A DNA stretch of 64,000 nucleotides from Eucommia ulmoides (lineage: Eukaryota; Streptophyta; Magnoliopsida; Garryales; Eucommiaceae). Shown here in pieces: positions 1-52,858 of the stretch. Under the pieces are notes generated by a model. The model saw only the letters and a program-made list of their open reading frames with translations, had not been told where the DNA came from and made no database searches. The stretch is from assembly GCA_016647705.1 (NCBI GenBank), contig CM028335.1, forward strand, positions 17,381,905 through 17,445,904, read 5' to 3'. Made by a program: the position numbers and the translations under genes. Position 1 is the stretch's first letter. Every line of letters starts with the position of its first letter.

Positions 1-1
1 C

Positions 2-2032
2 GGCAGGGACAAGTTAGATCCTGGTGCTTTAAAATGTGTCTTCCTCGGCTATTTTTGCACACAGAAGGGTTATCGATGTTATAGCCCATCATTACATCGC
101 TCATTTGTGTGTGCAGATGTTACATTCTTTGAGTTCACCCCTTACTTTTCTGCCCCATCCTCTCGAGATGATCTGGATGTTACGCTTCCTTTTCCAATTA
201 AACCAACCCCTACACTATCTTCCTCAACTCCAGATCCTATCCCCACTAGTCGTTCTTCAGCCCTTTTGCAGGTATACTCTCGTTGCCAGAAGGAAGCCTC
301 CGCTGTTGTGCCCATCGATTATGTGCCCTCAGATTCTTCTCCAATAGACCCACCCATGTCTGACTTAGACATTCCCATTACTATTCAGAAGGGTAAGCGC
401 ACTTGTATTAACCATCCTATTTTTAACTTTATCTCATGTGCGCACCTATCTCCTTCCTACTCTTCTTTTGTTGCTTCTCTGTCCTCTATTTCTATTCCTA
501 TGTCTGTTTCAGAGGCCCTCACTCACCCTGGTTAGGCAAAAGCAATGGAAGAAGAAATGTTTGCCTTACATCAGAATGACACTTGGGATCTCGTCTCGCT
601 TCCGCTTGACAAAACTATAGTTGGATGTAAATGGGTGTACACTGTCAAAGTTTATCCGGATGGAACCATTGATTACCTCAAAGCTCTCTTAGTTGCTAAA
701 GGCTATACTCAAGTCTACAGTCTTGATTACTATGAGACTTTTTCTCCCGTTGCCAAGCTCGCTTCTGTTTGTTTGTTCATCTCTGTGGCTGCCACTTTTT
801 ATTGGCCATTACATCAGCTTGATATCAAGAATGCTTTCTTAAATGACAATCTAACTGAGGAAGTATAAGTGGCGCAACCTCCTGGGTTTGTTGCTTAGGG
901 GGAGTCTGATTTAGTATGTCGTTTGAAGAAAACTATTTATGGCCTCAAGCAGTCTCCTAGAGCATGGTTTGGAAGATTAAGTGAAGTGGTCACTGAATTT
1001 GGTCTTCGACATTGTGGATTTGATCATTCTTTCTTCTATCAGCATAGTAAAGTCGGGAGAATATTGTTGATTGTGTATGTGGATGACATCGTAATTATTG
1101 AGGATGACCACAGTAGTATTCAAGAATTGAAAAAGTGTTTGCATAGTAAGTTCCAAACCAAAGATTTGGGGCACCTAAAGTATTTCTTGGGGATTGAAGT
1201 TACTCGATCAAGTCAAGGCATTTACCTATCTCAGAGAAAATATGTCCTTGACCTATTGAGTGAAACAGGATTGCTAGGAGTAAAACCGATTGACTCGCCT
1301 ATGAATCCAAACACCAAATTATTGTCAGACCAGGGTGTACCACTGACAGATTTAGCTCAATATAAACAGTTAGTTGGGAAGTTGAACTACCTGACAGTTA
1401 CCAGACCAGATATCTCCTTTGTTGTTAGTGTTATCAGTTAGTTCTTGGATCGTCCAATGGTTTATCACAGGGATGCAGTGATTCGTATTCTCCGATATCT
1501 GAAAGGTGCTCTTGGTTGTGGTTTGCTATATCAAAATTTCGGTTATACTCAAATAAAGGGCTACATAGATGCAGATTGGGCCGGATCACCCTTAGAGAGG
1601 AAATCTACTACTGGGTATTGTGTGTTTATTGGTGGTAACCTTGTCTCTTAGAAGAGTAAAAAACAGATGGTAGTGGCACGATCGAGTGTAGAATCGGAAT
1701 ACAGGGCAATGGCGCATACCACTTGTGAGTTAACGTGGTTGAAACATTTGTTGGAAGAACTTAGATTTGAACACACTTCACCGATGGACCTAGTATGTGA
1801 TAATCAAGCAGCACTTCACATTGCATCCAACCCAATCTTCCATGAGAAAACAAAGCACATTGAAGTTGACTGTCACTTTATTTGGGAAAAATTGTTGCAG
1901 AAGCAGATTAAGACTAAACATGTAAACTCAATTGATCAGTTTGCTGATATTTTTACTAAATCGCTAGGGGGTTCAAGGATAAAATACATTTGTAACAAGT
2001 TAGTAGCATACAATATATATGCTCCAGCTTGA
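2..2032 (+). pseudogene. Copia pol: integrase C-terminus, reverse transcriptase, RNase H
   Basis: One reading frame runs from base 2 to the stop at 2030-2032 without a frameshift. It begins in the integrase C-terminal region (LKCVFLGY), passes a variable linker rich in P and S, then RT from about 545 (NDTWDL, GCKWVY, QLDIKNAFLN, YGLKQSPRAW, catalytic YVDD near 1074-1086) and RNase H (YIDADWAG near 1565, ESEYRAM near 1690, FADIFTKSL). Five in-frame stops interrupt it: TAG 533-535, TAA 866-868, TAG 896-898, TAG 1439-1441 and TAG 1649-1651. By family comparison they replace Trp, Tyr, Gln, Gln and Trp codons. The domain order INT-RT-RH is diagnostic of Ty1/copia. The protein would copy element RNA into DNA in cytoplasmic particles; this copy cannot. 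Confidence 0.93.
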
Positions 2033-2039
2033 GGGGGAG

Positions 2040-2199
2040 TGTTAAAGGGTAATTAAGTCTTTTCTGTATTAATTAGGGTTTCCCGTACGGTTTAGGTTTT
2101 ACTGTATTGTTTCCTAATTCTTATTATAAATAGTGGGAGAGGCTAACACAATAGTGTAAACCTTCTCGTTCTTCTCATATCACCTTTTTACTTTATCAA
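2040..2199 (+). repeat. 3' LTR of the first copia element
   Basis: Begins TGTTAAAGGG immediately after the polypurine tract and ends about ACTTTATCA near 2199. It holds a TATA-like stretch (TTATAAATAG, about 2123-2132). About 160 bp is short for a copia LTR. The right boundary is set where homology to Harbinger elements B and C begins; the partner LTR is outside the window. Confidence 0.75.
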
Positions 2200-3184
2200 T
2201 GGTATTAGAATGACCATTACCATTTCTACGTTTGATTACAAAATACATTAAACATTGTATTGGAATGACCGATAAATAAAAGTGAAACAATATTCTTAAA
2301 TATTCGGAAATTTTAGAACAAAATTTTGGGAACATAACAAAATGATTCAGAGACACTAAACAAATGTTACCTAGGTTATCCTTTAACCGGACAAACTAAA
2401 GGACTTAGAAGTACTTTCGTGTTTTTGTTTCCCTTTTATCTGTTCCCAAAAAAACTTATAACTGAAATAAATAAAAAAAAAAAAATGATTTGCTTATGTT
2501 CTGATTCTAGGATTTTGTTGTAAAAATCTGAGAACAGAAAAAAATAAATTTTTTCCTATTTTATTGATTCTGTTCCAATCATTTTGTTAATAGACTTAAG
2601 ATATAGAAACACCAAACTCCATTTATGCCTCATTTGTTTAGTGTTTCTGTTCTCATAAAATTGGGAATACAAATAAACATATGAGAGAAAAGTTGTTTGT
2701 TTCTAATTTTATATCTATGTTCCAAGTTGTCTTGGAACAAAAACAAAAATCTAGGAACAAAAACAGAAATCTGGGAACAAAAACAGAAATATGTTCCCAG
2801 ATTTTTGTTTTTGTTTTTGTTCCCATATTTCTATTTTTGTTTTGTTCCCAGATTTCTATTTTTGTTCCCAGATTTCGTTCTCATATTTCTGTTTCTGTTC
2901 CATGTTTTCTAGGAACAGAAACATGAAAGCAACACCACCATATTTTTATTTCTATTCTCAGAATTTTATTTTTTGTTGTGAAAAATACGGAAATAAAAAT
3001 ATAAGTCATACTTCTTACATAATATCTCATTTCATATGAGATTGACTAATCCCATGAGTTGTGGGATTAGTCCTTACTTGAGAATAGGAATGAAAACCAA
3101 TGTCACCAACCAAACGTAAGAATGAAATAGTCATTTCCAACTTCATTCCAATCTCAAGATGAATCCCATGTACCAAACACGACC
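2200..3184. mobile_element. Harbinger-family non-autonomous element A (right part)
   Basis: Aligns by eye with 3297-4319 (element B) through its whole length, including the GGAATGACC start region, the poly-A tract, the AGAACAAAATTTTGGG block and the closing palindromes. It ends CCAAACACGACC at 3184, followed by TTA (3185-3187). The first 110 bases or so, including the left TIR, are missing because the copia element at 1-2199 inserted there. No transposase is present. A large imperfect hairpin sits at about 2730-2925, made of GGAACAAAAACAGAAAT-type arms against their reverse complement. Mobilisation by a transposase like that of element C is inference. Confidence 0.8.
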
Positions 3185-3187
3185 TTA

Positions 3188-3539
3188 CGCTACGTTTGGT
3201 ACCTTGGAATGGAATAGAGTAGAATGGAATGAGTGTGGTATTGGAATAGAATAATCATTACCATTCTTATATTTGGTGACAAACGGGATTAAACATGGTA
3301 TTGGAATAGCCATAACCATTTCTACGTTTGGTTACAAAATACATTAAACATGGTATTGGAATGACCGATAAATTAAAATGAAACAATATTCGGAAATTTT
3401 AGAACAAAATTTTGGGAACATAATAGAATTATTCAGAAACACTAAACAAATGTCACCTAAGTTATCCTTTAACTCGACAAACTAAAGGGTTTGGAAGTAC
3501 TTTCGTATTTATGTTCCCAAAAAAACTTATAACTGAAAC

Positions 3540-3570
<31 letters not shown>

Positions 3571-4319
3571 GATTTGCTTATATTCTGATTCTAAGATTTT
3601 GTTGTAAAAATATGAGAATAGAACAGAACAAATTTTCTCCTATTTTACTGATTCTATTCCAATCATTTTGTTAACAGACTTAAGATAGAAATATCAAACT
3701 TCACTTATGTCTTACTAGTTTAGTGTTTCTGTTCTCATAAAATTGTGAATACAAATAAACATATGGGGAAAAAGTTGTTTATTTTGAGTTTTATATCTAT
3801 ATTCTAGGTTTTCTTGGAACAAAAACAGAAATCTAGGAACAAAAACATAAATATGTTCCCAGATTTCTATTTTTGTTTTTGTTCCCATACTTTTGTTTTT
3901 GTTCTCATATTTCTGTTTTTATTTTGTTCCCAGATTTTTGTTTTTATATTTGTTCCCAGATTTTGTTCCCATATTTCTGTTTCCATTCTATGTTTTCTGG
4001 GAACAGAAACATGAAAGCAACACCACCAATTTTTTTTTTTTGTTCCCAAAATTTTATTTTCTATTGTAAAAAATACAGAAACAAAAGTATATGTATTTCT
4101 TCTTACATAATATCTCATTTCATTTGAGATTAGGTAATCCTAGGATTACCTAATACCTCATGTCATTTGGAATTGACTAATCTCATGAGTTGTGAGATTA
4201 ATCATTACTTGGGAATGGGAATGAAAATCAATTCCATCAACCAAACGTAGGACTTAATGGAATGGTCATTCCCAACTTCATTCAAATCTCAAGATAAATC
4301 TCATGTACCAAACGTGACC
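3188..4319. mobile_element. Harbinger-family non-autonomous element B (complete, 1.13 kb)
   Basis: Bounded by TTA at 3185-3187 and TTA at 4320-4322. The left end CGCTACGTTTGGTAC is the inverted counterpart of the right end GTACCAAACGTGACC. The interior parallels element A, with a poly-A run near 3540-3566 and an inverted repeat of GGAACAAAAACAGAAAT motifs at 3815-4010. Subterminal palindromes (GGTAATCCTAGGATTACC near 4125) precede the right end. The TTA target and GTTTGGTAC-containing TIR fit PIF/Harbinger elements. No coding potential is seen. Confidence 0.82.
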
Positions 4320-4778
4320 TTACGCTACATTTGGTACGCTGGAATGGAATGGAATGAAATGAGTGTGGTATTGGAATGGATGTGGTAATGGAATGGAATG
4401 ACCATTACCATTCCTATGTTTGGTGACAAACGGGATTCAACATGGTATTGGAATGACCATTACCATTCCTATGTTTGGTGATAAACAAGATTAAACATGG
4501 TATTGGAATGACCATTACGATTCCTACGTTTGGTTACAAAAATGTTAAACATGGTATTAGAATGACAAATAAATAAAAATAAAATAGTGAGTATTCAAAC
4601 ATAAATAAACCAACATCAAACATAAACCAAATAAAACAACCATCAAACATAAACCAAATAAAATCAAAACAATTCGTACACATACTAATACCGCAAAATA
4701 AATTGATAAGTCCATAGTTCAAAACAACTCGTACACATACTAATACTGCAAGTCTTGAAAAAAAAACATCAAAAATTT

Positions 4779-5743
4779 TCAAAGATCACCTTTCAATATA
4801 CTTTGGATAAATTCCCGCTTTTTATCATCAGGAATGTTCCAAAATAAGTCAGAAAGGTCTGAATTTTGGAGTAAAACACTGGAAGCTTTGTGTCTCTCAA
4901 ATGTAGATAAGCCTGAAATTTTTGTTAATTCTCCATAAAGTATTTTTCTCGTTTCAAGCTTTGCTTCATCAACCCCTAAGGCGTGGCTAAATGAAGCAGT
5001 GGCATCTCGAATTTCCTTACCAATGATTGATGCAGCATTCATCAATCCATCGATCAAGTCTTCCTCGTTTCTCTTTCGTTTCTTTCATTTTGTGCTTCCG
5101 GATGTCTCTTGCATAGGTGGATTGGTAGACGACATTGTTGCATTCACTTCGTCTCCTTCATTTTCATCATTTTCTTCTCTTTCTGTTTCCTCTATCATAC
5201 CAATCGGTGCTTGTGCAGAAGCACCGGTTGCTCAGTCTTTTCCGAAAATGATGCACAAATCCTCATAGTGTGGCAAAGTTTTGTCCTTAAATTTTTCAGC
5301 CCCCTTGTGGCTCTACAAAACAAATGCAGAATAAGATAAATACATAGACTTGTTAATGTATTAAATTTCAAATAAAAGTCAAGGAATACCTTGAAGTAGT
5401 CGTGCCAAACCCTCGGACTTGCAGTTACACATTTTTTATCGTGATCAAAACCAAATCCACTTGTATCTTTGCCATTGAGCATATCGTAGACGATAGAGAA
5501 GTCTCTCTTTAGAACTTTAATCCGCAACTCGATATGTGGTTTGGCTTTGATACAACTTCCCGGAAGTTTTTCCTCTAAACGTTTTTCAATAACGTTTAGG
5601 TATCCAGATCTAAAACCATTTTCCGCTCGATGTATTCCTGAATTTACCAAGTCCAGGAGTGCTCCAATGAGCTCGTTGTCTTCTTTTATACTCTATTTTC
5701 TTTTATTTTTACCTGGACCACGACTATTACTAGATGATTCCAT
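4779..5743 (-). pseudogene. Harbinger accessory Myb/SANT-like DNA-binding protein
   Basis: The frame starts at ATG 5743-5741 with a Ser/Gly/Lys-rich N-terminus. A Myb/SANT-like domain follows (ELIGALLDLVNSG, GYLNVIEKRLEEKLPG, VYDMLNGKDTSGFG). Exon 1 ends at 5390 (TTCAAG/GT), a 77-bp intron spans 5389-5313 (GT...TTGTAG), and exon 2 continues with the LPHYEDLC motif, an acidic spacer, a KKRKRNEED basic stretch and a helical C-terminus ending at 4779. In-frame stops: an early TAG after KNKRK (where relatives have Trp), TGA after IIFGKD, and TGA before KKRKRN. In this family the protein works with the transposase in nuclear import and TIR binding; that role is family knowledge. Order on the minus strand is transposase first, then this gene. 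Confidence 0.85.
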
Positions 5744-6041
5744 TCCTGTAGGTTTATGAATAGAACATGAAACAATGTTCTTAAATAAGCAGAAATTTTA
5801 GAACAAAATATAACAGAATTATTATGTTGTTCGACCAAGAACATAAATTTTACAACACAATAGAATCCACAACAGAAATTACCTAGTAAATATGAATAGA
5901 ACATGAAACAATATTCTCCCCCCAAAAAAACACTTCATCGGCTATTATGAAGTACAATAATAAACTTTAACTCAAAAAATAGATAAAACAGACATAACCA
6001 ATTCAATAGACATTATGAAATACAAGAATAAATATATTGAA

Positions 6042-7317
6042 TTATCTTCTATTCTGCCTATTTTCTCTCCATTCATCAAACATTTTCTTCGCTAAATTCT
6101 CTCTAAATTCAGTCCATTCAGAAGATGATTCAATCGTTGAAATTAATTCATCATGTTCTTCGTACGCCACATTGCTTTCTTCCTCTAATTATTCCTCATT
6201 TGGGTTAACTCCCATCTCATCTAAAATGTAGTTATGAAGGAGACAACAAGCCATTATTATATTGTTTTGTATTTTGATTGAATAGTAAGACGGACTTCGT
6301 AGAACCGCCCAACGATTTCTAAGTTGTCCAAAACATCTTTTGATCATATTCCTAGCAGAAGCATGCCTCATATTAAATAATTCCTCCGGCGTTCTGGGTA
6401 GATATCCATCTCTCCAATCATTCAAGTGATACCTTTGACCTCTAAAAGGGGCAAGAAACCCTTCACCATTCGTATAACCCGTATCAACAAGGTAGTATGT
6501 ACGTTAAACATATCACAATATTAAGTTAATTATATTATTTATAATTTTTAAAATTACTAAAGAACTTGGAATTTCTTACCACGGGGCACAATCAATCCAT
6601 TCCTCCTACTAATTGCATCTCTAAGGACTCTACCATCTGCTGCAGAGCCTTCCCACCCAGGTAAAACATAAATAAAACGTGTGCCTTGGGAACATACTGC
6701 TAAAACATTAGTAGCGATTTCATTTTTCCTTTATCCATACCTAGGCTTGTCTTCAAGTGGTACTCTAACCCTTATATATGTTCCATCTAAGGCTCCAACA
6801 CAACCCTAAAAAAATAAATATATTAAAGTAAGTATTTTTTTATAGATAACATCAATTTAGCTAAACTTGAATTAGAAAATCTATTAATTACCTTGAACCA
6901 TTTCCATTTCTCATCGGTAGAATTTTCGGGTACAAACTCAGGCTTCTTGAGCAAGTGGTCATGCAATCTTATTAACGAAATCAATACATTCTTGAAGTGT
7001 CTACTAATCGTCTTACCGGATCGTGCAAAACGATGTGCTATCACTCGATTTTTTACATGATGTGCAAGAATGTGCAAGAACATAGCAACTTGTTCATCAA
7101 TAAGCATGTTCTGAGTATGTTGTAACTTCCCTATTGTCTCCAGCATGACACACAACTTACAAAAAGCCCTTCTATCCATCCTAAGCTGAGAAATGCATGC
7201 TTCGTCGCTCTCATATGCGTACTTGTACACTATAACCCTCCTCTTGTAGAAACTAATACAAGAAATAGATCCCATGGGTCTTTTACTTGTACGGTAACAT
7301 ACCACAGCGGCCATCAA
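6042..7317 (-). pseudogene. PIF/Harbinger DDE transposase (HARBI1/ALP1-like)
   Basis: Three exons can be read on the minus strand. Exon 1 (about 7317-6893/6892) holds the helix-turn-helix region (ARSGKTISRHF). An 85-bp intron (GT at 6891-6890 to AG at 6807-6806) joins WFK to GCVGALDGTYI. Exon 2 (6805-6580) has the first catalytic Asp (ALDGTYI), a stop TAA after KPRYG, and the second Asp ([12 protein letters not shown]). Exon 3, from about 6500, has YYLVDTGYTN, the HLNDWRDGYLP block, PEELFNMRHASARN (probable catalytic Glu) and CCLLHNYILDEMG. Stop TAA just before 6189 follows NPNEE, yet homologous sequence runs on to a TAA at 6042-6044. The acceptor of intron 2 reads AAC instead of AG, another defect. 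The N-terminus upstream of 7317 is unclear. The enzyme would cut and paste the element at TTA sites. Confidence 0.9.
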
Positions 7318-37543: not shown

Positions 37544-39091
37544 AGACTGTGTTCAGTACAATGGTTTTCTAATAAGGATATTTTTGTTATTTCATCACTC
37601 CACTAAATCTAAAACATTTTCTTCTATTTTTTTTTAACGACAATTCTTTAAAAAAAAATAAGAGAAAACTTTAATCGTTGTTAAGTAAAAATATTTTTAT
37701 GTTCAGTGATGATAAAATAAAATGATAAAAATATCTCTATTAGGAGGACACTTACGAAAATAACTCAATTTTTTTTTTTCCAAAATTGTTAATAAAATTT
37801 TTAATTTTGTAAAATTGAAATAAATGTAGAACTTTAGGGATTAATTAACTAATAGAAAATTTAATGTATTGTCATACATAAGCTTAGAGGATATTTTTCT
37901 ATCCTCTTTTTTAAGTAAGTTATTTTTAAGTATGTTATTTTTAACCGTCTATCTATTTCGGTTATATACTATTTGACCATTATATCCTTCTTCTTCTTTC
38001 CTTTTTTCTTTATTTCTTTTTTATTTTTTTTTAACATATATTAGGGAGGGATTTGAACTCTATGCTTTCTACAAAGGAGGTTAGGAGATATCCACCAGAG
38101 ATTTTTACTTGTCTTAACCATGTTTTATAGAGATTTTTTTTTAATAAAAAGATTTTTAATTTGTAATTCATGCATGTCATTTCCTTTTCACAGTTAGGTT
38201 TTTTATTGTTAACATAAGTTAATATTTAAAACTAACTACATTAAGTTACAATTAAATTAAATGAATTTGATAACAAAATAAAATTATTATTTAAAATATA
38301 AGTATAAATTAAAAATTGTTCTGACTCATTCATTTATTTTTTTAGCACTTTTCACTTAAAATAATTAAATATTTATCTGGCATAACCACTATTCAACATC
38401 AATAATAAAAAATCTTTAAAAAAAGTTGTAGAAAAATATTTTAAAATAAGAAAGTAGTAAAAATTATTTTAGGGACAACAATTTGTACAAAAATATTTTT
38501 TTTGGAAACTAAAAGTAATAGAAAAACAAATACTTAATATTAAGCATTTAATAAACTTAACACTATTTAACACTAAAAATTCAACACTTATAAGATTTGA
38601 GCACTTAAATTTTAGTATTATCAAATAAGCCCTTAATTTTTTTAATTTTGATTTCCATTTTTAATTCTTTGTTCTTCGTCTTCACTCTCTATATACTACA
38701 CGAACAAAACTACCATATAAATCAAATCAGCATAAACTTTAACTAATTAGTCTCTCACTATGCAATGTCAACTACATTTTGCTAGTTAACGTCAAATAAA
38801 GTTCCAATCTCCATACACTACGCGTACAGATTTGCCGTACAAATTTAAGCAGTATAGTTAAGTTAGCTAACTTGTGTCTAACGTCAACTGGATTTTGCTA
38901 ATTAATGTTCAACAGTGTTTCACCGGTTGATGCTAACTAAAACAATGCTTTAATAGGTGTATTACATGTTAATTAACATTGCACTTACGTTGTTATTAAT
39001 TCAACAATTAATTAATGTTATTTTCCCACATTATTTGATTAAAAGGAGATTACTGATTTGAACACTCATAGATATTTAATCAAGATAAACC
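37544..39091. other. Gene-free AT-rich spacer
   Basis: Poly-T and AT tracts only. A weak inverted repeat, ATATTTTTGTTATTTCATCACT (near 37578) against its complement near 37735, might be a decayed MITE, but the ends are unclear. Confidence 0.5.
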
Positions 39092-39254
39092 TATTAATGT
39101 AATAATGGGCTTACGCCCACTTAGGCCCATCAGGGCAAACCCTAACCCCCTCTTCCCTTATATATACTTGTGTATATGGTATTTATAAATTTGTATCTCT
39201 TTCACATATATCAATATATGATTCATATTCTTCTACTTCTCAATCATCTTAACA
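39092..39254 (+). repeat. 5' LTR of the hosting copia
   Basis: Starts TATTAATGTAATAATGGG (the expected TG is TA here) and ends CATCTTAACA. A TATATATACTTGTG promoter-like segment is present. It is paired with 52564-52726. Confidence 0.92.
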
Positions 39255-40320
39255 TGGTATCAAGAACAAGTCTTTTCTGGACCTATTTTTCATAAAATTT
39301 TTGTAACTCTAAAAGCTTCCGCCACCGTCATTATTCTCCCGAGAATTTCGTCGCTACTGTAGGCTTCATCCCCGCTCCGATACCAGCAACCACCATACCA
39401 CCATTTTCGTGTTGCATAGATGAACACAACGTCATCAAACTCACCACCACTAGAGATCATAGGCACCGTCATACGCCCAAAACAGCTCGCAATACCACCA
39501 CATCTCGCCGTCTCGGATTTTGGTCTCCACCGCCTCAACCAGGGCTCTAAATCCACCTCACGATATACCATTGGAACTGTCTCGACGAGTCGATTCAAAT
39601 AACGCAAAAATCAGCGTCGTACGATACCTCAGGCGTCTTCACGCGCGGCACATAGATTCTGCATTGTTTTGCCCAAGATTCACGCGCCACCAATCTTGTT
39701 TTTGCCAACATACTACCACATCAGCCCTAAAGCCCATTTAGCTACCACCTCAAAGCCAAGTCAGTGCTACGTCAGCTGCCACGTTACAGCCAGGTCAACT
39801 AGGACCACCACATCAGCTAACACGTCAGTAAAGTGACCACCATATCAACTGCCACCGCACCTGTCATGTTAGTAGTTGACCGCCACATCAATTGACATGT
39901 CAGCAGTTGACCGCCACGTCATCATTGCTTGCCACATTACCGTTTTCTTTTGGCTACCTTTCTTTGATCAGTTCGGCCATTTTTAGACTGATTTTCTAAA
40001 AAGTTGGACCAGTTCCTGGGGTTTTTTGACTTTCTAATTTTGTTTTCGGCCTCCGTTTTATGGTTTGAGGCTCACAAAATATACTTCATGTTATATCCGT
40101 ATGGTTCCTACACCGATTTACTCGATTTTCACTCGATCCTTGAAGATTCAATATCGATTCCTAGATAATTTCAGCATTATGAATCCATCCATGACAACAG
40201 TTTCTCCAGGTTCAATAGTGATATCTATGGGTTCTTCGCTCATTATCAATGCCAAATAGGGTTCAGATAACATCCGATCCTAATATTTTTTCGACTAAAC
40301 TATTCGTAATGAATATCCCT
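39255..40320 (+). other. Copia leader and degenerate gag/protease stretch
   Basis: A PBS at 39255 is followed by C-rich text with repeated CCACGTCAGC/CCACATCAGC words (39712-39925). The start of a protease-like region (ending before IHTTDGSQMPVTHIG) may lie at its right. No gag motif could be recognised, so gag is deleted or too decayed. Confidence 0.5.
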
Positions 40321-40851
40321 AGTATTCATACCACTGATGGTTCTCAAATGCCTGTTACCCATATCGGTTAGGTTTTTACTTTCTATCTTTATATTCTTGA
40401 CACGTATTTGATTCCAAAACTTACCTTAAATCTTTTGTCTATTGGGAAACTTTGTGAATTAGGATTTGAATTCATATTTTCTAATAATGATTGTCGTGTG
40501 CAGGATCCTCGAACAGGAGAAACTCTTGGGATTGGTCGTAAGATTGGAATTTACCAATTTTCACCTTCTATCTCCAACTCCACCACCACCACAATCACAT
40601 GTCCCTTCATCAACATGTGCAATCTGACTACCACCAGCAGTATCATCTCCATCCTCATCCTTATCTCTACAACCACCAGTGTTTGTCTCACTATCTAAAA
40701 TTTGGTATGCTCGTTTAGGTCATACTTCATCTAACCAACTCAAATCGCTTATTTCTAACGGTCAATTAGATTTAGTTCAGCATGAGTCATTCAAATGTAT
40801 CCATTGCTAACTTGCAAAACAACCAGCCCTACCTTTCAAAAAGAGTCAGTC
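40321..40851 (+). pseudogene. Copia protease end and pre-integrase domain
   Basis: Reads IHTTDGSQMPVTHIG, then DTYLIPKLTLNLLSIGKLCE, FEFIFSNNDCRVQDPRTGE and, after a Ser/Thr-rich insert with a frame change, a RLGHTSSNQLKSLI zinc-binding stretch and KCIHC*LAKQPALPFKKSQS. The last codons meet the gypsy solo LTR at 40852, and the frame resumes at 49957 as IYLAPFDLI. This is the segment linking protease and integrase in copia pol. Confidence 0.85.
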
Positions 40852-41275
40852 TGTCACAACCCACCCGGGACACCCATCACCCTAGGGCTGACATGGCATT
40901 ATCATGACATCACCTACACGCCAAAGTAACTGCAAACCGACATATACGCACATAAATACACAACTACCAAAAAAAATTATACTATTTTAATACACTCTCT
41001 AATTGGGGACACACCCGTCCCTACAAAAATTATAATAACCACAAAGATAAATACAATCCTGAACCTCTCATAAGTTTGCATCAACTAGCACCTCCAAAAT
41101 TAATACCCTCTCACTACCGTATTGCCGAATTTTAACTAGCGCTAGTAGGGGGACCGACTCCTAACTGTTTCACCTGCGAGTGTACTGTCTTCTTAATAAA
41201 AAAAAATTAAATTGATCAAGCATATAACATATACACATCACATTCCAAATACAAATCTCATATTATATATATCTA

Positions 41276-41306
41276 CTAGCGTATAACCCGTGCCTGAAGG
41301 CACGGG
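41276..41306 (-). terminator. Helitron 3' terminal hairpin and CTAG end
   Basis: Stem CCCGTGCC / GGCACGGG with a 4-base loop (41287-41306), then TTATACG and CTAG at 41279-41276 on the minus strand. In Helitrons this structure marks the replication end; here it fixes strand and boundary. Confidence 0.88.
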
Positions 41307-42117
41307 CGAAAAAAGAAAACTTAATACTTACGCAATTAAGCAGAAAAATCAATAGACCCAACATAAAAAAAAAAAAAACATTACAGAATATACTGCCAGT
41401 AACCACAACTACAAACATCAAAAATAATAATGAATTTAAATTATTAACACGTGTTTTCAAAGACAACAAATTCGTGCCTGAAACAAACATTACTAAAACA
41501 AATAACAATAACTTAATTACCTTATAATATCTCCACCAATGCAGAACTTTTTCACCTAATTTGTACAACAATCAACGAAGTTAATGAATGCCTTTATACA
41601 TTAAGATGGCGTTTCACTTACCCATGGCACTTTCCCAATATTTTCTTAACCTCTTCGGTAGTATCATTATGTGAAAAACATTCAACTCACTATTAATTTG
41701 ATCTGATTAATCTTATACAAAAGGTTCAATAACCATTCAGTTAATGGGAAACAATCATCGATATACCCGAGTACAAATGAACTATACAATGGGAAACAAT
41801 TTGACAAAATTTACAATTACAAATTTACAAAGCAAATATGCACCGCCAATACAGAAAATACTGGGTAAAAATTCAAAAAATAAAAAAAATACACTTTGAT
41901 TAAACAACATTTAAAATTATTGACTCCTATTTTCAAATTTATACAACCAATAACCAACATAACCACTAACAAACACAACCACTAACCGATAACCAATAAT
42001 CAATTACTATAGAGTATACCTTGTAATATCTTGCACACATTGAGCCTTCCAATTTTCAAGCATAGATTTACAGATTGCTCTAGGCAAGCTATGGATTCTG
42101 TAAAGCACCTAATGTTA

Positions 42118-42653
42118 AGAACAGAAACGGAAACAGAAACAGGGAACAGGGAACAGGAACAGAAACACGGAACAGAACAGAAACAGGTAACAGGAATGGA
42201 AACAATAACGAAAATAGAAATGGAAATGAAAACATGTATATTTCTCTAAAAATAATTCAGGAGAAATGGTAAACATTTATTTTTCTTCAAATTCAGGAAT
42301 GGTAGACATTTATTTTTCTTCAAATTCTTAAGAAATTTTAAAAATGGACTCATATTATTTAAAAAAAAAATTGGGAACAAACACGTGTTTACCAATCGGG
42401 GAACAAAAATATGTTTACCTAAGAACAAAAACATGGAACGACTTATTTATTGAAAATGAGATTCAATAAATACTTAACCTTACCCATTAAGAGAATATGT
42501 GAGATTCAATAAATACTTAACCTAATTCTACAGTCACTTCCCTCTCTCCTCGCTAGCTTGTCTCTCTTCCCTCTGATTCTACAATCGAACAAAACAAATG
42601 CAAATTAAAAGAGTATAAATATGAAAATTAGCACAAAACATAAGATTGTATAA

Positions 42654-42684
<31 letters not shown>

Positions 42685-43290
42685 TGAGTGAGGGAGGGGA
42701 GAAATCTGGGAACATAAACAGAAACGGAAAACAACACTGTTTTTTTTTCCCTACATTTGTTCTAAAAATCTGGTAGCATAATAGAAAGTGTTGGAACAGA
42801 TTTGTTCTAACAATCTTTTTTCCCGAGAAACAGTAAATAAAAAACAAAAACAAAAATGCCAAACAGAAACACACTAAAAAAAATTACAATGTTGACCCAA
42901 AAATAGACATGATTTGAACTATGGTTAAACATACATGATTTATTTAGATGGGAACATTAGAATGATTACATAAATATTATGAATCAGACATTGAACATAT
43001 TTAGTCGGTTTGAGAAAGCGAGGAAGAATTCCAGTTGTCTGACAAAAATGTAAAATCTACCCAAAAAAACCAATATACGGATAATCAGCTAACAGTTCAT
43101 ATGCCTAAGGAAGAGGTAAATAGTGAAGAAACGGTTCATATGCCTTAGAAACAGGGAACAGAACAGAAACAAGTAATAGAACAAAAACAAGAATGGAAAC
43201 AGAAATGGACAAACAGGGAATAGAAACAGGAACAAACAGGCTTGAAAACAAATTCAGAACAAACAGAACAAAACAGAAACAGATCTCAAA
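42118..43290. repeat. GGAACAGAAAC arrays and about 200-bp direct repeat in the Helitron
   Basis: (G)GAACAGAAAC/GGAAACAGAAAC runs lie at about 42118-42230 and 43148-43285. After each comes a related block starting CAAATTCTTAAGAAATTTTA (42319 and 43288), with GGGAACAAA, ACTTATTTATTGAAAATGAG and TTCTACAGTC(A/G)CTTCCCTC. The second block ends near 43490. A short tandem duplication (AATGGTA(A/G)ACATTTATTTT) is at 42264-42330. Confidence 0.8.
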
Positions 43291-43491
43291 TTCTTAAGAA
43301 ATTTTAAAATAGACTCAAATTACTTTAAAAATTTTGGGAACAAAAACGTGTTTACCAATTGGGAACAAAAACGTAGAATGACTTATTTATTGAAAATGAG
43401 ATTCAATAAATACTTAACCTTGCCCATTAAGAAAATATATGAAATTCAATAAATACTAACCTGATTCTACAGTCGCTTCCCTCCCTCCTCG

Positions 43492-43590
43492 TCTTCCGAA
43501 CCTTCGCCGCTCGACATCAGTCCATTTCCGTTCAAATAGTACTTTTCTCGATGATCTTGGCGGTTGGGCGCGATGCCTATATTTGTAAGG
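43492..43590 (-). pseudogene. Exon-like captured fragment, unidentified
   Basis: On the minus strand an acceptor-like AATATAG at 43583-43577 is followed by an open frame of about 40 codons (IAPNRQDHREKYYLNGNG...GEGSEDEEGG) ending TAG near 43453. It is GC-richer than its surroundings. I do not recognise the protein; it might also be a captured 5' leader. Confidence 0.35.
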
Positions 43591-44435
43591 TTGTTAGAAT
43601 TCATCGTTCTAAGCAATGGTCCACGACTAAATCAGAAAAAGAAAACTAAACAAAAAAAAAATATGCTTCTCTTTCTGTTCTTTGAGACCAAAAAACAGAA
43701 ACCATAAATCTAAATTTTGAAACTAAAAAAGAAAATAGATTGCTTTCTAGAACAGAAGCAGAAACAAAAATTTTGGGACCAAATCACATAAGCAGAAAAC
43801 TAAAACAAATGCCTTAGATGCATTTGATCAAGTTGAATTCAAAATCAAAATCCAAAACCATTAAAGTTTCTGAGAATAGAAACACTAAACAAATGCCATC
43901 TAAAAAAACCATAAACAAAAACTTATTTTAGAACAACAAACAATCTTGTGAAACAATTAAAAAATACCTTAATTCTAAAATCGCACCACTAAATGAAAAA
44001 AAAAACAAAAAAACATATTTCTTAGAAACCAGGGGCATATATGCCAGCGATAATAAGAGAAGGAGAAAAAATTGATATTCTAAACTAAATAATTTTAAAA
44101 AAAAAAAAAAATCCATTTTCGAATGCGATGAATTTAAGTAGTTAAACATAAATGTAAAATAAAAAAATTAATCTAAATTAGGAATTGCATAAAAATCAGT
44201 AATGAACTCATCATTTTCATCAAATTAACATAAACATAACATGAATCAAGAAATGAAAATGACAAAAGAAGAAAAAAAATACCTCTAGCGATCCTCTCTC
44301 TCAGCCGTGTAAGCGTTCATCAACGCCAATCCTCTGACCGTCATGGCAAACTTGAGCTCAAATCAAATAGTGGCACCCCAAATACCTCAAGGTGAAAAAA
44401 TACAATTACATAGTTCAGTCTAACCAAAAATTATA

Positions 44436-44920
44436 TTTTTGAAAGTACTCTTGCTCAATGCAACAGAAAATCATGTTTTTGTTCTGGTCTTAACATTTCA
44501 GAACAAACGGGAACAGAAACACAGAACAAACGGGAACAGAAACACAAAACAAATGCTACTATTAGAACAAATGGAAACAAAAACACAAAATGAATGCGCC
44601 ACTGGTATTTTCATTGAAATCACTCTTGCTCAATGCAACAGAAAATCATGTTTCTATTCTGGTCTTAACATTTCAGAACAAATGGGAATAGAAACACAAA
44701 ACAAATGCCACTATTGGAACAAAATAGCAACAAAAACACGAAATGATCCAACCAAAAATTATATTTTTGAAAGCACTCTTGCTCAATGCAATAAAAAATC
44801 ATGTTTCTGTTCTGGTCTTAACATTTCAGAACAAACGGGAACAGAAACACAGAACAAACGGGAACAGAAACACAAAAAAAATGCCACTATTGGAACAAAT
44901 GGAAACAAAAAAAGAATCAC
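44436..44920 (+). repeat. Three tandem units (about 120-180 bp) in the Helitron
   Basis: Units begin near 44436, 44610 and 44762 with TTGAAA(G/T)..ACTCTTGCTCAATGCAA. They continue AAAATCATGTTT, TTCTGGTCTTAACATTTC, GGGAACAGAAACAC and AAATGC(C/T)ACTATT. The open frame through them comes from the repeat and is not a known protein. Confidence 0.85.
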
Positions 44921-45425
44921 CTAATTCTATAAAATTAAAAGAAAAGGCTTAAAAAATACCTACAATTTCCTTTGTAGTTTGACATATCCATCAACAAATA
45001 AATAACATCCAATAGCTTAACCAAATTTAACACCTCATCCTCCTCCTCAATCTTTCCACCCTTAATATTATAGATTCAACCCCCGAAAACTACAAAAAAT
45101 CAAATTCCAAGTTAAATCAAATCCATCAAAATTTCATAAACCTGTAATTGAACTTACATTGTGTAAATAAATCAAAGCGAATCAAATGGCAAAAGATAAT
45201 ATTCCAATAAGGAAGAGAGTGTGGGGTTTAGGGAGGAAGTAATGTACCTGAGCTGCTAATGGGAACGGAGGCAATGGCCATGGCCAACAATTCGGCAGAG
45301 AAATAATTGTGATGAACTTAGCTAGCGGACAACTTAAAGAATACAAAAACTTATTTTAGAACAACAAACAAACTTGTGAAACAATTAAAAATTACCTTAA
45401 TTCTAAACTTATTTTAGTGGATTAC

Positions 45426-45509
45426 TTGGCAAGACCCTTGAGAGCGACGTTGTCCCTATCAAAGTAGGAAAACATGGCATGGTAGGCGTATGAAACATTG
45501 TTTTCCACA
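45426..45509 (-). pseudogene. Captured ferritin exon
   Basis: On the minus strand, an acceptor CACAG (45514-45510) is followed by 84 bases and a donor GTAATCC (45425). The exon encodes [15 protein letters not shown] then [12 protein letters not shown], joined by split codons AA/T (Asn) before and AA/G (Lys) after. This matches the plant ferritin helix-A segment (VEYNVSYVYHA-type) and, from memory of the family, its usual intron phase. Ferritin is the plastid iron-storage shell protein. Only this exon is present; no transit peptide exon or the downstream EREHAEK exon was found. No stop interrupts it. Gene capture by the Helitron including parts of both introns is the simplest reading. Confidence 0.85.
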
Positions 45510-45840
45510 CTGTGAACAACAACATATGAGAACATAAGCTCAAGCAACAAATTCCATAGTATCAAATAATAGCTCAATCTCAAACGAAATTATAAAATAA
45601 AATAATTAGAAACAGATTAATCCATGAACATGATGAGGACAATAAAAAGAAAAGCAGCAAATCTGGACGATTTTTCAAACGAAAATTCCGGGAGAAAGCT
45701 TATCGTTTCGATTGAGCTACCATCATACATTTAAAGGGGAAAAAAAAAAGCACAAATGTTTCAATTAAAACGGAAAAAAAAAAAAAACATACATGTTTCA
45801 ATATGAAATTTTTTAAAATTAGGCAGAAAAGTAAAATTTA

Positions 45841-46030
45841 TGAACAGGAACAGAAATAGAAACGGAAACGGAAACGGAAACATTTATATTTCTCTAACAG
45901 AAAACAAAAACAGAAACAGGGAGCAGAAACAGAAACAGAAACAGGGAACAGAAACAGGAATGGAAACAGAGACGGAAACAGAAACAAGGAACAAGAACAG
46001 AAATAGAAACATGGAACAGAACAGAAACAA
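45841..46030 (+). repeat. (GGAACAGAAAC)n array
   Basis: GAACAGAAAC, GGAAACGGAAAC and GGGAACAGAAAC variants run for about 190 bases. They are related to the arrays at 42118, 43148 and 44500 in the same Helitron. Confidence 0.85.
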
Positions 46031-46649
46031 ATGCAAGAATAGTCTTATCAAGCTCACCACATATACAATCATAAGAAGACAATCTAGGATCCCCAATTTG
46101 CAATAGACAATAAAAAATCAAAGACATAAACTTGAAACACAAATTAGGAAGAAAAAAAATAAAAAATGGAAACTGAAATAGAATAAAAACCAAATAGTGA
46201 TTAAAAAAAGGCATTGGTTATACAAAAAAACACAGACCTAAATATTGTTTCTGTTAATTAAAGGACTAATTCAAAAAAAAAAAAAAACTTCATTAGCTTC
46301 GCAAACGATATCTGTTGTAGAATCAGAAAGACAGAAAAGTTGACAATCAATCTATCACACAAACCTAAAATTTGTTCAATCATTTAAATAGAGATAATAC
46401 CAATCAGTGATTCCATTTAAATAGCTGCAATTAACTTAAAAAATAAATTATAGTTGTATAATGACAAAAGGTAGAGAAAACAATGCAAAGAAAAATGGAA
46501 TTTTTAACAATATTTACATCAGACATAAACTTAAGACTACAACAATTTGCAGTAAGAAGCAAATTTCAGAAGCAAAGAATTTCAAAAACACAATTGAGCA
46601 ATTTTCAGTTCAGCTATAAACAAATAAAATGAAGCCAAAACTCACTTAC

Positions 46650-46745
46650 CATAGCAACCTCAAAGCCTCCACCGCGAGCTTCTCTATAAGGCCCAACGTC
46701 ATCTCATAAAGGATCTCATTCGTAAAACCTAAACAGCTCAAAACA
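46650..46745 (-). pseudogene. Exon-like captured fragment, unidentified
   Basis: On the minus strand an open frame (NEILYEMTLGLIEKLAVEALR) ends at a strong donor TATG/GTAAGTG (46650/46649). I do not recognise the protein. GC content and the donor site argue for a captured exon, possibly from the same gene as the C-rich stretch at 47200-47530. Confidence 0.4.
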
Positions 46746-47186
46746 AACAAACTCAAGCTTAGGAATACACATTTTTTATAAGTTCAAAATGCAAAATAAC
46801 CATGTTGATTGTGAGATAATCAAATGAACTGTGAGGCGATTGAGAGAGAAAGAGAGAGACGTTAATCAAATACAAAATAACCATGTTGATTGTGAGATAA
46901 TCGGCCTTCACACTGTGTAAACCCATTTCAGATCTGAAATCGAAAAAATCACAGAGAAATTAAAAGAAATTTCTGTTAAGGGATAGAGGGGAAAAACAGA
47001 GAAAGGGCTTCAATTTTAAGGGTTTCGAAACCCAAAATCAAGAGAGAAAGAGACCCTAATTTCAAAAACCCTTAAAAAAAATCAAATTCAAACCAATGAA
47101 TTTCAAAACAAAGATTTTTAGTTTGAACTGCTGCAAAATTGAATCAAGAGCTGTGAATCGTGGTGGTTGAGAGAGAGAAAAAAAAG

Positions 47187-47530
47187 GCTTACCAGGGAAT
47201 CTACGACGTCGGGAGCGAGGACTGTGAGCGATTGGAAGAGTCAACTATCAGCGGAGTTGTGACATTAGGAAGGGAGAAGTCGTCGCGAGGGAGAAAGAAG
47301 AATCCGCCGCCGTCGCGAGTGAAGGATGACGGCGTGGATGGCAAGGCGATGACATTGCGGCAAAATAGAGCGGAGGTGGCAGTGGCAGTGGCGAGGGGAT
47401 GGCGGAGGAGGCTGAGAGGAAGTGGATCGCAGGAGACTGAGTAATAGAGAAGATGAAGGTGACGGTGATGGCGATTGTCGGAAGTGGAGAGGGAGCGCAA
47501 GGGAGGAAGAAAGAGAAAGACGAACCCTAA
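47187..47530 (-). pseudogene. GC-rich first-exon-like fragment, unidentified
   Basis: A GC-rich island (CGCCGCCGTCGCGAG) with a minus-strand frame of about 99 codons from ATG 47500, ending in a stop near 47201. A donor-like CCTG/GTAAGCC lies at 47187. Composition is strikingly different from flanking AT-rich DNA. It looks like the 5' exon of a nuclear gene, but no family is recognised. A direct repeat (ACCATGTTGATTGTGAG at 46799 and 46879) lies downstream. Confidence 0.4.
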
Positions 47531-47680
47531 TTTCTCTAGTAGTTGTGGTTTTGATGATAGAGAGGCAACCCTAAATCAGACGTCCAATATTTATATGTAG
47601 GTTTATTTTGATCTAACGGCTACGAATATCCAGAGACATCAAACGGTTGTGAATGTAAATGAGCTAATTTATTATATAGA

Positions 47681-49951
47681 TATATATATACCATAAGGAT
47701 AACACTTTTTTCCTATCACCACAGAATGAACGTATATATGTTTATAACATTTCAACTAAGCAGTAAAAAGTCAAGCAGAACGTCACAATAACCATATAGT
47801 ATAACGCAACTGAAATAATAGATATATTGTCGTAAATAGATACACCAAGCCAGTATAAAATGAAGTATATATAAATGCTATATACGACAAAACACTATAT
47901 ACGACACTACATCACACCACACCTCACCACACCATATCACACCACACCTCGACTAGCCATGTGATCGTTTTAACCTCACGATCGAGAGTTGCAACGGTAC
48001 CGTACCCTGTAGGATATGCCTTCCTAGCGGGATATAACAACGCTCCACTGGACTATGCTAGATGGGTGAATAACGCTCCGCTGGACTATGCCAGACGGGT
48101 GAAACACCGCTCTGCTGAACTATGCTAAGCGGGTGAATATCCACCACCAATCTCCACCTCATCTCAACAACAACAACTCATCTCCACCTCAACAACAACA
48201 ACTCCGCCCACCACCAACTGACACCTCAACAACAATATCAGAAATACCCAAAATAACGCTTGATCCATGTAAGTTAGAAAATTCATCTATTTTCAAGTAA
48301 ACACATTTTTCCATCATATATATATATATATGAAAATATATTTTTGCAAGAAGGCAGTACACTCATCTGGTGATCCGTTCCCTAAAAACCTTTACTGCCT
48401 ATGCTTTACCGTTCTTCAGGTGCCAGCGAACCTATTAGTGACAGGGCCTAAATTAATATTTAGGTAAAAATATAATTTAATCATGAAATGCAGGCCCTAC
48501 ATTCTACAATTTTCCCGTCCCCACATTTTATTATGAAAAATTATTATTATTCACCCCATTCCGTTACAATAATATTTTATGTACAACGTTATTACAATAA
48601 CCGTTACGAAAATTATTTCAATTACGGAAATTGTAACGCTAAAGATTTTATTTAACGAGAAATAATAATCGATTGAAATTTCACCCATTTCCTAATCATT
48701 CGCAGGCCAAGAAGTTGAATTAGTTTTTTAGTTTTTTATTTTTATTTTTGGGGTGGTTAGTGTAATTGTTCTTTCCTATTCCTTTTCTTCTTTCTTTTTT
48801 CTTTCTTTTTTCTGTTTGATGTTACTGTTTTCGTCCGACCACCGATCAACCACCACCCCCTCACGTCCCTCTCACCAGCGGCAACACATAACAGTGCCCA
48901 CACCCCCCGCCATTGTCAACACCACTTCCACACAGCACGATCACACATACCTACACACCGATCACACACCCACTCTCCGACACACTCTCTCTCTCTCTAA
49001 CCTCCCTTCACTACCGGCCATCCCACACTAGCATAACGATCACCACTAACCGACAATGATCCACCCACGATCGTCGATGATCAACGACCAACGATCTAAA
49101 CAGATTCCCCATACACCCACACTCTGTTGCGTTATACCGAAACAAATAAGGCACACGCGCACATGCACTACCTCAGCGGCGACACACACTGCTCGCCGCA
49201 CCATGGCGACGATCACACACATGCACCCATGCACCCGAATGATCAACACAACACATATATACATATATCATAGAAATTTAAACATATACGCCTACTTACC
49301 AAACGACGACGACGAACGGCAACGGTCACGCTATTGACAATCTCACCCCCACGATCGTCGAACAAACAACCGAAGACGCACACATACACAGGGACCGGAT
49401 TGAGCCCACCCGCACAATCGTTTAATGACAAAACCCACAACCACGACGTTGGACTGAGCACACCGCCGAACACCCTCCGATTCTCTCTCTAACTTGTGTG
49501 ATTTTTCCCTTATCTCCCAGCTTTTGATCATGATAACATTTAATTACATGGGTTTTTGTGGATGGATTTTTGGTTTTCTTCATGCCTCGTCGCTCCTCTC
49601 CCACACTTCCTTGTCTCTGGCTGAGCTCACGGCACACGCACGTCCATATGCATATATGTATGTATATATATAAATATCTTTTGTTTAATTACACTTTTCT
49701 CCCCTTTATTCCTTTAACATTTCATTTTTATCCAATTTCCACATTCAAGATTTTCTAAATTGCAATTTCATCCCAATTTTTTTTAATTAAAGTTAAATGA
49801 AAATTTGGGGTTGAATGTTTTCTAAATTTAAAAATCGACCCCTAAACTTTTAAATTTGAATTTTTTTTATTTAATCCAATGTCACCCCGAATTTCTCTAA
49901 TTACTTTAAAATGCAACTAAAATAACGTACGTACGAAATCAGGGTCTCACA
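47681..49951 (-). other. Right part of the gypsy solo LTR, no gene
   Basis: Contains (TA)n, a three-copy 34-bp tandem repeat (48035-48136), a CCACACC-rich stretch (47905-47950) and CA-rich text (48840-49480) giving spurious long frames. Its end TCTCACA joins the copia at 49951. Confidence 0.7.
48035..48136 (+). repeat. Three tandem units of about 34 bp
   Basis: Units share ACGCTCC(A/G)CTGGACTATGC and GGGTGAA and start near 48035, 48069 and 48102. Confidence 0.85.
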
Positions 49952-49956
49952 CTGTC

Positions 49957-52560
49957 TATTTATCTTGCACCTTTTGATCTAATTCTTTTTTATATTTGGG
50001 GGCCTTTTCCCCATGCCTCGATGGATGGTTGTTACTTTATTATCTTTGTAGATGACTACTCTTGATATATATGATTGTTTCTTATGAAACACCAATCCGA
50101 ACTATTCCAAATATATTCTAAGTTTTCTTCTATGGTTCAAACCCAATTTTTTAGAAATATCAAAGTTTTTTGCTCAAATAATGCAATGGAATATAAGGAT
50201 CATGCTTTCCTCAACCTACTTTGCAAAAATGGTACATTCCCCCATCGCTCATGTCCTAGTACATCCCAACAAAATGGACAAGCCAACCACAAATATAGAC
50301 ATATTCTTGACACAGTTCGTGCTCTCCTAATTTCTTTATCATGTCTTAAGCATTTTTTGGGTGATGCTACCTTCACAACCGTCTATACAATAAACCGCAT
50401 CCCTTCCGCTACAATTCAAAACCAGTCTCCATTTGAGCGCCTTTTCGGTAAATCTTCTGATTACTCTGAACTCGGAATCTTTGGTTGCGCTTGTTTTGTT
50501 TTTCTCAAACCACATGAACACAACAAACTGGAACCAAGGGCTCATCTGTGTTGTTTTATTGAATATGGCATCAAACACAAAGGGTATTGGAATTGGGATC
50601 CTATTTCTAAAACCCTTCATATCCCGCGACATGTCATTTTTTGGGAACATCAAATGTTTTCTTCCTTACGTTTATTTGACATGTCCACCCTCACCAACTC
50701 TAGATACTTTACTGATCCATCCATTGAGTTATTTCCGTAGGATACAGTTCCAGGTATTGTTGAGTCCACTCCAGTACCACCAGTTGAACCTAGCCCTATA
50801 CCTTATTCTAAGTCCACCCCAGACCCACCAGTTGAACTACTAGCTGATCGCACCCTTGCAACTCCAGCGACCGTGCCTGAGATTTCTCCTATGGACAATG
50901 ATCCTGTATCGTCTTCCTTTGAAACCCACGTCCCAGATCACCTTCACGGATCTACTAGGGTAACTCATCCTCCATATTACCTTTCTGATTTTTGTTATTT
51001 TTCTACTATACTTCATCTGCATGAGCCTCAATCCTATAAGGAGGCTAGTACTAATCCTCTTTAGCAGAAAGCAATGGACGAAGAACTTTAAGCCCTCGCC
51101 AAAACTCATACTTAGGGTATTGTTGATCTGCCCCTCGGAAAAACTCCTATTGGGTGCAAATTGGTGTTTAAGATCAAGACATTTTCTGATGGCTCTGTTG
51201 AACGATATAAAGCTCGACTTGTTTCCAAGAGATTGGTTCAGGAATATGACATTAACTATGAAGAGACATTTGCTCCAGTAGCAAGGCTAACATCTGTCCG
51301 TACACTTCTTGTCGTCATTATCATTCACAAATGGACTCTCTTTCAAATGAATGTCAAAAATGCATTCCTTAATGGAGATCTTCTTGAAGAAGTCTATATG
51401 CATACCCCTTTCGGCCTAGCTACTCCTCGAAATAAAGTTTGTCACTGTCATCGTGCATTTTATAGTTTGAAACAAGCTCTACATGCCTGGTTTGCCAAAT
51501 TCAACACTATTATTCATCAGTTTGGGTTCACACCTAATGCTCATGATTCGGCTCTATTTATTTTCTATACTGCAAACGGTATTATCCTTCTCTTACTGTA
51601 TGTGGATGATATGGTTATTTCTAGAGATGATCTACATGGTATTTCTGAACTCACAAAGTTCCTCAATGCCTAATTCGAGATGAAAGATCTTGGCAGGCTT
51701 ACCTACTTTCTTGGCCTTGAAGTCTCATATGGTTCTAATGGATATTTTCTCTCTCAAGCCAAGTATGCCTCAGATCTCATTTTCAAGGCTGAGTTCACTT
51801 ACTCAACCACTGCCACTACTCCTCTCGAGCCGAACGTCAAACTTACCTCACTTGATGGTTCACCTCTTCAGGATGTCACTCTATATTGCCAATTAGTTGA
51901 AAGTCTTGTATATCTTTCTGTCACTCATCCTGATATTATCTATGTCGTTCATCAAGTCAGTCAGTTCTTGTCCGCTCCTCGGACCACCCATTACTCGGTT
52001 GTTCTTCGCATTCTTCGGTATGTTAAGGGTACTTTATTTCATGCGCTTTATTTCTCAGCTCCGTCTACTCCCATCTTACAAGCTTATTTTGATGCTGATT
52101 GGGCTAGAGACCCCACCGACAGATGTTCAACCATTGGTTACTGTTTTTTTTGGGCAATTCTCTTATGTCCTAGTGTAGTAAAAAATAAACTGTCTTTGCT
52201 CACTCCAATACTGAAGCTAAATATCGTGTTATGGCTGATGCAACTCAAGAACTTCTCTGGCTTCAATGGCTACTAGCTGACATGGGCATCTCTTCTCCTG
52301 CTGCCACTATTCTACACTGTGACAACAAGAGTACTATTCAGATTGCTTACAATGATGTATTCCACGAGCGTACAAAATACATCGAGACTGATTGTCACTT
52401 AATTCGTCATCACATTCTCCAAAATACAGTTCTTCTACAATCCATCAATTCAGCCGATCAGATAGAAACATTTTTACTAAGGCTCATCCACTCGGATGTT
52501 TTTACTCTCTGGTTTCCAAACTCAAGTTCATCTCCCACTTATAACCTTGAGTTTGAGGGG
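49957..52560 (+). pseudogene. Copia pol: integrase, RT, RNase H
   Basis: The frame resumes from the left piece with YLAPFDLI. The integrase core holds KVFCSNNAMEYKDHAF (catalytic-region Asp replaced by Asn), PSTSQQNGQANHKYRHILD and INRIPSATIQNQSPFE; the C-terminus has LGIFGCACFVFL. RT starts about 51067 (QKAMDEEL) with VFKIKTFSDGSVERYKARLV, FQMNVKNAFLNGDLLEEV, FYSLKQALHAWF and active site YVDDMVIS near 51599. A stop follows NA at 51671-51673 and RNase H (FDADWARDP) has a frameshift near 52180. It ends after a GEADxxT-type block (SADQIETFLL), near 52560. More than five stops or shifts make it inactive. Confidence 0.92.
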
Positions 52561-52563
52561 GGG

Positions 52564-52726
52564 TGTTAATGTAATAATGGGCTTACGCCCACTTAGGCCC
52601 ATCAAGGCAAACCCTAACTTCCTCTTCCCCTATATATACTTGTGTATATGGTATTTGTAAATCTGTATCTCTTTCACATATATCAATATATGATTCATAT
52701 TCTCTCACTTTTCAATCATCTTAACA
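52564..52726 (+). repeat. 3' LTR of the hosting copia
   Basis: TGTTAATGTAATAATGGG through CATCTTAACA, next to TSD AAACC. It is about 93% identical by eye to 39092-39254. Confidence 0.93.
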
Positions 52727-52858
52727 AAACCAATTAATAAATAAAAGTAGGATATATAATGTTTATGTGAAAAATCCTAAGGCGGGGAAAAAATCACGGA
52801 CCGAAGTCCAATATCAACTTTCACTATCACAAAATAATGGAATTATAAACGTTTACAA

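Follow-up and report, generated by a model that had tools for sequence, protein, structure and literature searches.

A stretch of the Eucommia ulmoides genome holds three transposons nested one inside another. Within the window, by which we mean the whole 64,000-nucleotide stretch analyzed here (assembly GCA_016647705.1, contig CM028335.1, positions 17,381,905 to 17,445,904, forward strand), a copia element is interrupted by a solo long terminal repeat (LTR) of a probable Ty3/gypsy element, and the LTR is interrupted by a Helitron. The Helitron carries a ferritin-derived piece, which is cargo rather than a fourth insertion at this locus, and the Helitron itself seems to be fused from parts of two repeat families. 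The order of insertion, copia then gypsy then Helitron, is well supported: it is fixed by containment and backed by empty sites, because uninterrupted relatives exist. We hold this explanation as a whole (three insertions, a ferritin passenger, and a fused Helitron) with high confidence. A preliminary description of the locus had proposed four levels of nesting, three of which are borne out by empty sites; the fourth falls away, given that the ferritin piece occurs in 19 other places at 90-96% identity. That description lacked the orientation of the LTR and the fusion. In each search of the genome (946.7 Mb, 391 contigs), only the best 40 candidate places were scored.

Three insertions and their order

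What is the evidence for each layer? First, the outer element (39092-52726) is flanked on both sides by the target site duplication (TSD) AAACC, just as originally noted. Pfam matches in four of six open pieces of its interior run in the order gag_pre-integrs, SH3_retrovirus, RVT_2, with no match to the integrase core in any of the six. The integrase-region domains before RVT_2 and the 5-bp TSD are those of Ty1/copia elements; the exception is the first two bases of the 5' LTR. The coding region is interrupted by stops. As for the earlier suggestion that the copia reading frame is restored across the gypsy LTR, by hand arithmetic the frames on the two sides agree, although both sides contain stops.

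Second, the gypsy LTR does lie inside copia pol between CAGTC and CTGTC. The copia sequences flanking it had 1638 candidates in the genome on the left and 1999 on the right, with the best 40 of each scored, and nine copies were fetched of the 39 listed besides the window for the left flank. In all nine, the two flanks are adjacent at a single CAGTC-like site. The flanks overlap there by 1 base, which is one LTR base included in the left query, and in one copy (L059) the BLAST alignment of the right flank starts only after its first 7 bases, although the sequence is continuous. The LTR (40852-49951) starts with TGTCACAACCC and ends with GGGTCTCACA; with the Helitron removed it is 2695 bp long, and no interior adjoins it. 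Its left arm has 3571 candidates in the genome, and relatives occur as LTR pairs, such as C16:3333107-3335719 with 3340491-3343198, which are separated by ~4.8 kb. Since the LTR is complete and flanked by a TSD, has no interior, and has paired relatives, it is a solo LTR. One point counts against this layer: only four of the five TSD bases are identical, the fifth being a mismatch.

The LTR is oriented on the minus strand, because a relative on C2 (L044), whose interior is partly in hand, has protease and RNase H matches on that strand in two of four pieces, and because a TATCAGAGCC-like sequence, which we take to be a tRNA-Met primer site, abuts its LTR. Of the gypsy-type pol order (protease, reverse transcriptase, RNase H, integrase), L044 shows RVP_2 then RT_RNaseH, with no reverse transcriptase match, and the sequence ends short of the integrase.

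Third, the Helitron was correctly placed between A and T inside the gypsy LTR. It has a 5' TC and a 3' end of the CTRR form, and a GC-rich hairpin, CCCGTGCCTTCAGGCACGGG, of 20 nt stands 11 nt before the 3' end. Relatives have like ends, some of them decayed. The insertion caused no duplication, and its exact base is blurred by a (TA)n tract. Five gypsy LTR copies were compared at this site. In four, the arms are parted by (TA)n only (40 bp in L067, 12 bp in L068, and none in the other two); in the fifth, L044, a ferritin-carrying Helitron lies between them. Thus, joining the flanks of a layer and aligning them to uninterrupted relatives, as had been proposed as a check, succeeds for copia in 9 of 9 fetched copies and for the gypsy LTR in four of the five compared. 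The longest open stretch within the Helitron is 166 amino acids.

The event order had been called unambiguous, and this holds for the copia, gypsy, and Helitron insertions. It does not extend to the ferritin piece, an earlier passenger, or to loss of the gypsy interior and the fusion. Indeed, the order of solo-LTR formation, ferritin capture, and Helitron fusion is not given by the window locus alone, and formation of the solo LTR may precede or follow entry of the Helitron. Dating, also proposed earlier, does not separate the layers. Between the two copia LTRs there are 8 differences, every one a transition, over 162 aligned sites (K 0.052; 95% interval of p 0.022-0.095), which at a plant substitution rate of 1.3e-8 corresponds to ~2.0 (0.8-3.7) million years, as against ~2.1 million years from the end branch of the window Helitron (0.027).

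We read these observations as the following history. The copia element inserted first, and a Ty3/gypsy element then inserted into its pol and was probably cut down to a solo LTR by recombination between its two LTRs. A Helitron later entered that LTR at a (TA)n tract. The family of this Helitron had already picked up the ferritin piece elsewhere, introns included, probably from a dispersed broken copy and not straight from a working gene. In the window copy, a ferritin-carrying 5' part is joined at a 5-bp microhomology to a 3' part that brings the terminal hairpin of another family; the joining would have happened either before arrival or in place, from two adjacent elements plus a deletion.

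Table 1. Positions of the nested elements and of their parts within the window
Feature	Coordinates	Strand	Remarks
copia TSD, left	39087..39091		AAACC
copia 5' LTR	39092..39254	+	163 bp; begins TA, not TG
copia interior, left part	39255..40851	+	GAG-pre-integrase match 40628-40807; frame broken
gypsy LTR TSD, left	40847..40851		CAGTC
gypsy solo LTR, arm left of Helitron	40852..41275	-	3' part in gypsy sense
Helitron	41276..47680	-	between A and T; TC at 47680-47679, CTAG at 41279-41276
Helitron 3' part	41276..43919	-	other repeat family (T); like 3' terminus
Helitron 5' part	43915..47680	-	ferritin-carrying family (F)
Ferritin-derived piece	45412..45720	-	84-bp exon with 211 bp of intron before it and 14 bp after it
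Ferritin exon	45426..45509	-	84 bp; AG acceptor and GT donor
Stretch matching L048	47057..47147	-	86% match to L048, where it directly precedes the ferritin piece
gypsy solo LTR, arm right of Helitron	47681..49951	-	5' part in gypsy sense
gypsy LTR TSD, right	49952..49956		CTGTC
copia interior, right part	49957..52563	+	SH3_retrovirus and RVT_2 matches; frame broken
copia 3' LTR	52564..52726	+	163 bp
copia TSD, right	52727..52731		AAACC

Open pieces at 2-2029, where the window begins, resemble, by eye, another copia-type pol.

The ferritin passenger

The preliminary description had reported an exactly bounded ferritin exon. The exon is there, with its splice signals, but its bounds are not those of the captured piece, which carries intron sequence on both sides (211 bp upstream and 14 bp downstream). 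The best solved relatives of the exon are chloroplastic ferritins. A search of plasmids with the exon found no match, and a pattern search with a guessed motif was uninformative, the control giving more matches (729) than the motif (378).

A 301-bp stretch that covers one edge of the piece (45340-45640) is matched over its full or nearly full length in 19 other places; of the remaining 20 of the 40 scored matches, 7 cover the ferritin side only and 13 the other side only. All 19 copies were fetched. In 12 of them the match extends to the Helitron 5' end seen in the window, 2 match only from Helitron position 1645 onward, and 5 form a related group (L033, L037, L040, L043, and L046) that lacks the first 1960 bp of the window Helitron and is common with it only from the ferritin piece onward. 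Both Helitron ends are seen in some, not all, of the 19. Since the ferritin piece is present in these other places, and 12 of them have the Helitron 5' end in common, its capture is older than the Helitron insertion in the window.

Where did the piece come from? Six of the loci that match on the ferritin side only (L048-L053, 1.9 kb each) were compared, a seventh, on C14, being left out. L048-L052 also carry the next ferritin exon, and the frame is broken in all five. In L053 both exons are open, and this locus may be a working ferritin gene. The window piece differs from L048-L052 at 5.8-8.9% of positions, versus 30% from L053, so the source was probably one of several dispersed broken copies rather than the putative working gene. 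A further 91 bases of the window (47057-47147) have their counterpart just upstream of the ferritin piece in L048, and the family copy L036 matches this stretch in L048-L052, not in L053. Sequence similarity thus links these bases to ferritin-bearing loci, with a ferritin origin as a candidate.

Other features of the Helitron interior can be listed separately. A 170-bp unit occurs three times in the window at 44419-44916, the second and third being 69% and 94% alike to the first. At Helitron position 1645-1647, nine copies (L029, L031, L034, L036, L039, L041, L042, L045, and L047) are ~1.0-1.1 kb longer than the window, L032, L035, and L044, and the matches on either side of this point overlap by 3 bp. 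Two minus-strand stretches, window 45210-45340 and 46640-46730, resemble by eye the ends of further captured exons, with GT donor-like bases after them.

An apparently fused Helitron and a probable second hit on the same tract

Over Helitron positions 1-3766 (as far as window 43915), the window Helitron follows the ferritin-carrying family (F). Beyond this point the family runs ~550 bp to its own hairpin, and the window diverges, continuing instead with 2639 bp of other sequence (Helitron 3767-6405). This part has no strong match of at least 150 bp in the 19 fetched ferritin copies, save in the related group, whose five members match 178-318 bp of it at 72-78%. It is matched in other repeats, for example, with a gap, at C76:498325-500910. 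This sequence has 125 matches, many ending at the same 3' base, and we call the second family T. The comparison covered the 3' ends of this family, which have the same type of terminus, and T is probably itself a Helitron family. When the 600 bp preceding the junction in each of four T copies were compared with four ferritin-carrying loci, no match of at least 60 bp appeared. The window Helitron is therefore best read, from these alignments, as a fusion of F and T, which overlap in 5 bp of microhomology at 43915-43919. The junction is spanned by the window alone among the 40 places scored of 181 candidates; this scoring bounds how unique the junction can be said to be, and to that extent weakens the case.

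The fusion may have formed either before the Helitron arrived or in place. In the second case, a T element would have landed beside a ferritin Helitron in the (TA)n tract, and one deletion at the 5-bp microhomology would have joined them. The confinement of the junction to the window among the places scored and the overlap of both families at the junction are consistent with this route, as is a locus on C2, described below, where this tract is occupied by a ferritin Helitron that retains its two ends. However, a unit fused elsewhere and then moved once would look identical, and we put the in-place route at slightly below an even chance.

At the C2 locus (C2:10324501-10331708), a ferritin Helitron, its two ends present, sits in an LTR that belongs to the same gypsy family, at the same (TA)n and in the same orientation; the other LTR at C2 is empty at the Helitron site. 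C2 and the window are the only places, among the best 40 scored for each junction, that match well across both LTR-Helitron junctions, the C2 match on the hairpin side stopping at base 118 of 140. A separate match, C16:6384958-6385067 (88%), runs from the Helitron 5' end across the LTR junction by 31 bases, reaching base 111 of 160, and may represent a third insertion into this tract.

Do the window and C2 represent two insertions or one? In the latter case, the Helitron would have entered a gypsy LTR elsewhere and ridden into copia with it, making the Helitron-in-gypsy insertion older than the gypsy-in-copia insertion. Four observations weigh against two separate insertions. The shared tract and orientation could suggest kinship between the loci. 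The best match to the window left arm, among the 40 scored, is the empty C2 LTR (92%), with the Helitron-bearing C2 LTR ninth of 40 rows, self included (90%). Divergence of the LTRs and of the Helitrons is not separated when only transversions are counted (p 0.10), and a sister relationship of the two Helitrons is not rejected at 0.05 (p-AU 0.062).

There is, however, evidence on the other side. First, the best match of the Helitron-bearing C2 LTR is the empty LTR of its own locus (95%), with the window 18th of 40 rows, self included (90%). Second, window-C2 divergence is K 0.105 on both LTR arms (415 sites left, 1236 right) versus K 0.058 for the Helitrons, a difference that is marked when all differences are counted (p 1.5e-7). 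Third, the tree of ferritin Helitrons is near-star, the window and C2 copies do not come out as sisters on it, and forcing them to be so costs 8 log-likelihood units. Fourth, a landing hot spot is enough to explain the common tract: of 14 rows of ferritin Helitrons, 9 have (TA)4 or longer beside an end (7 of 12 when the window and C2 are left out), compared with 85 out of 1983 A|T sites drawn at random from these loci. Taken together, the LTR relationships, the divergences, and the tree favor two independent Helitron insertions. Arrival of the Helitron with the gypsy element, considered after the C2 locus was found, is judged very unlikely on the LTR relationships. Gene conversion is possible.

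Lastly, an assembly chimera inside 40852-49951 would account for a junction seen nowhere else among the 40 places scored, but it is scarcely credible, the window containing no N and both LTR arms and both copia flanks closing up around the insert.

Combining independent insertion with fusion in place gives a more specific, and more tentative, proposal: a (TA)n-seeking Helitron family would have hit one gypsy LTR tract at least twice and, in the window, had its 3' end swapped through an adjacent insertion and a microhomology deletion. We regard this as plausible, though on balance doubtful.

Implications and comparison with known systems

What does the locus mean for the study of nested transposons? 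First, it provides a worked example in which nesting orders insertions by containment but does not order cargo, and in which a Helitron can be a fusion. Second, the apparent repeated use of one LTR tract, together with the fusion junction, offers a testable case for the origin of new Helitron 3' ends. If the hot-spot fusion proposal is true, landing hot spots would be a route to chimeric Helitrons with new terminators. Within the library searched, no paper joined Helitron, gene capture, and ferritin, and nothing wider is claimed.

In plants, both the nesting of retroelements and Helitrons that carry gene fragments are commonplace (PMC2773423, PMC13317346, PMC4683698), so the window locus is a good example and not a surprise. 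In maize intergenic DNA, retroelements are inserted into one another with the oldest at the base, and the same region has 187 gene-fragment Helitrons in 22 Mb (PMC2773423). The window resembles these maize nests in both its nested LTR retrotransposons and its gene-fragment Helitron; nothing essential differs, the window arrangement being a Helitron in a solo LTR inside copia. Compared with plant Helitrons such as Mothra (PMC4683698), the window Helitron is set apart by its ferritin cargo and its apparent fusion, and the ferritin family favors (TA)n tracts in the loci examined. Helitron transduplication of gene fragments (reviewed in PMC13317346) provides the closest parallel for the cargo: as in the window, a captured gene fragment is multiplied with the element. 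The difference is that the nearest source found here lies among dispersed, broken copies of ferritin, and not in the likely gene.

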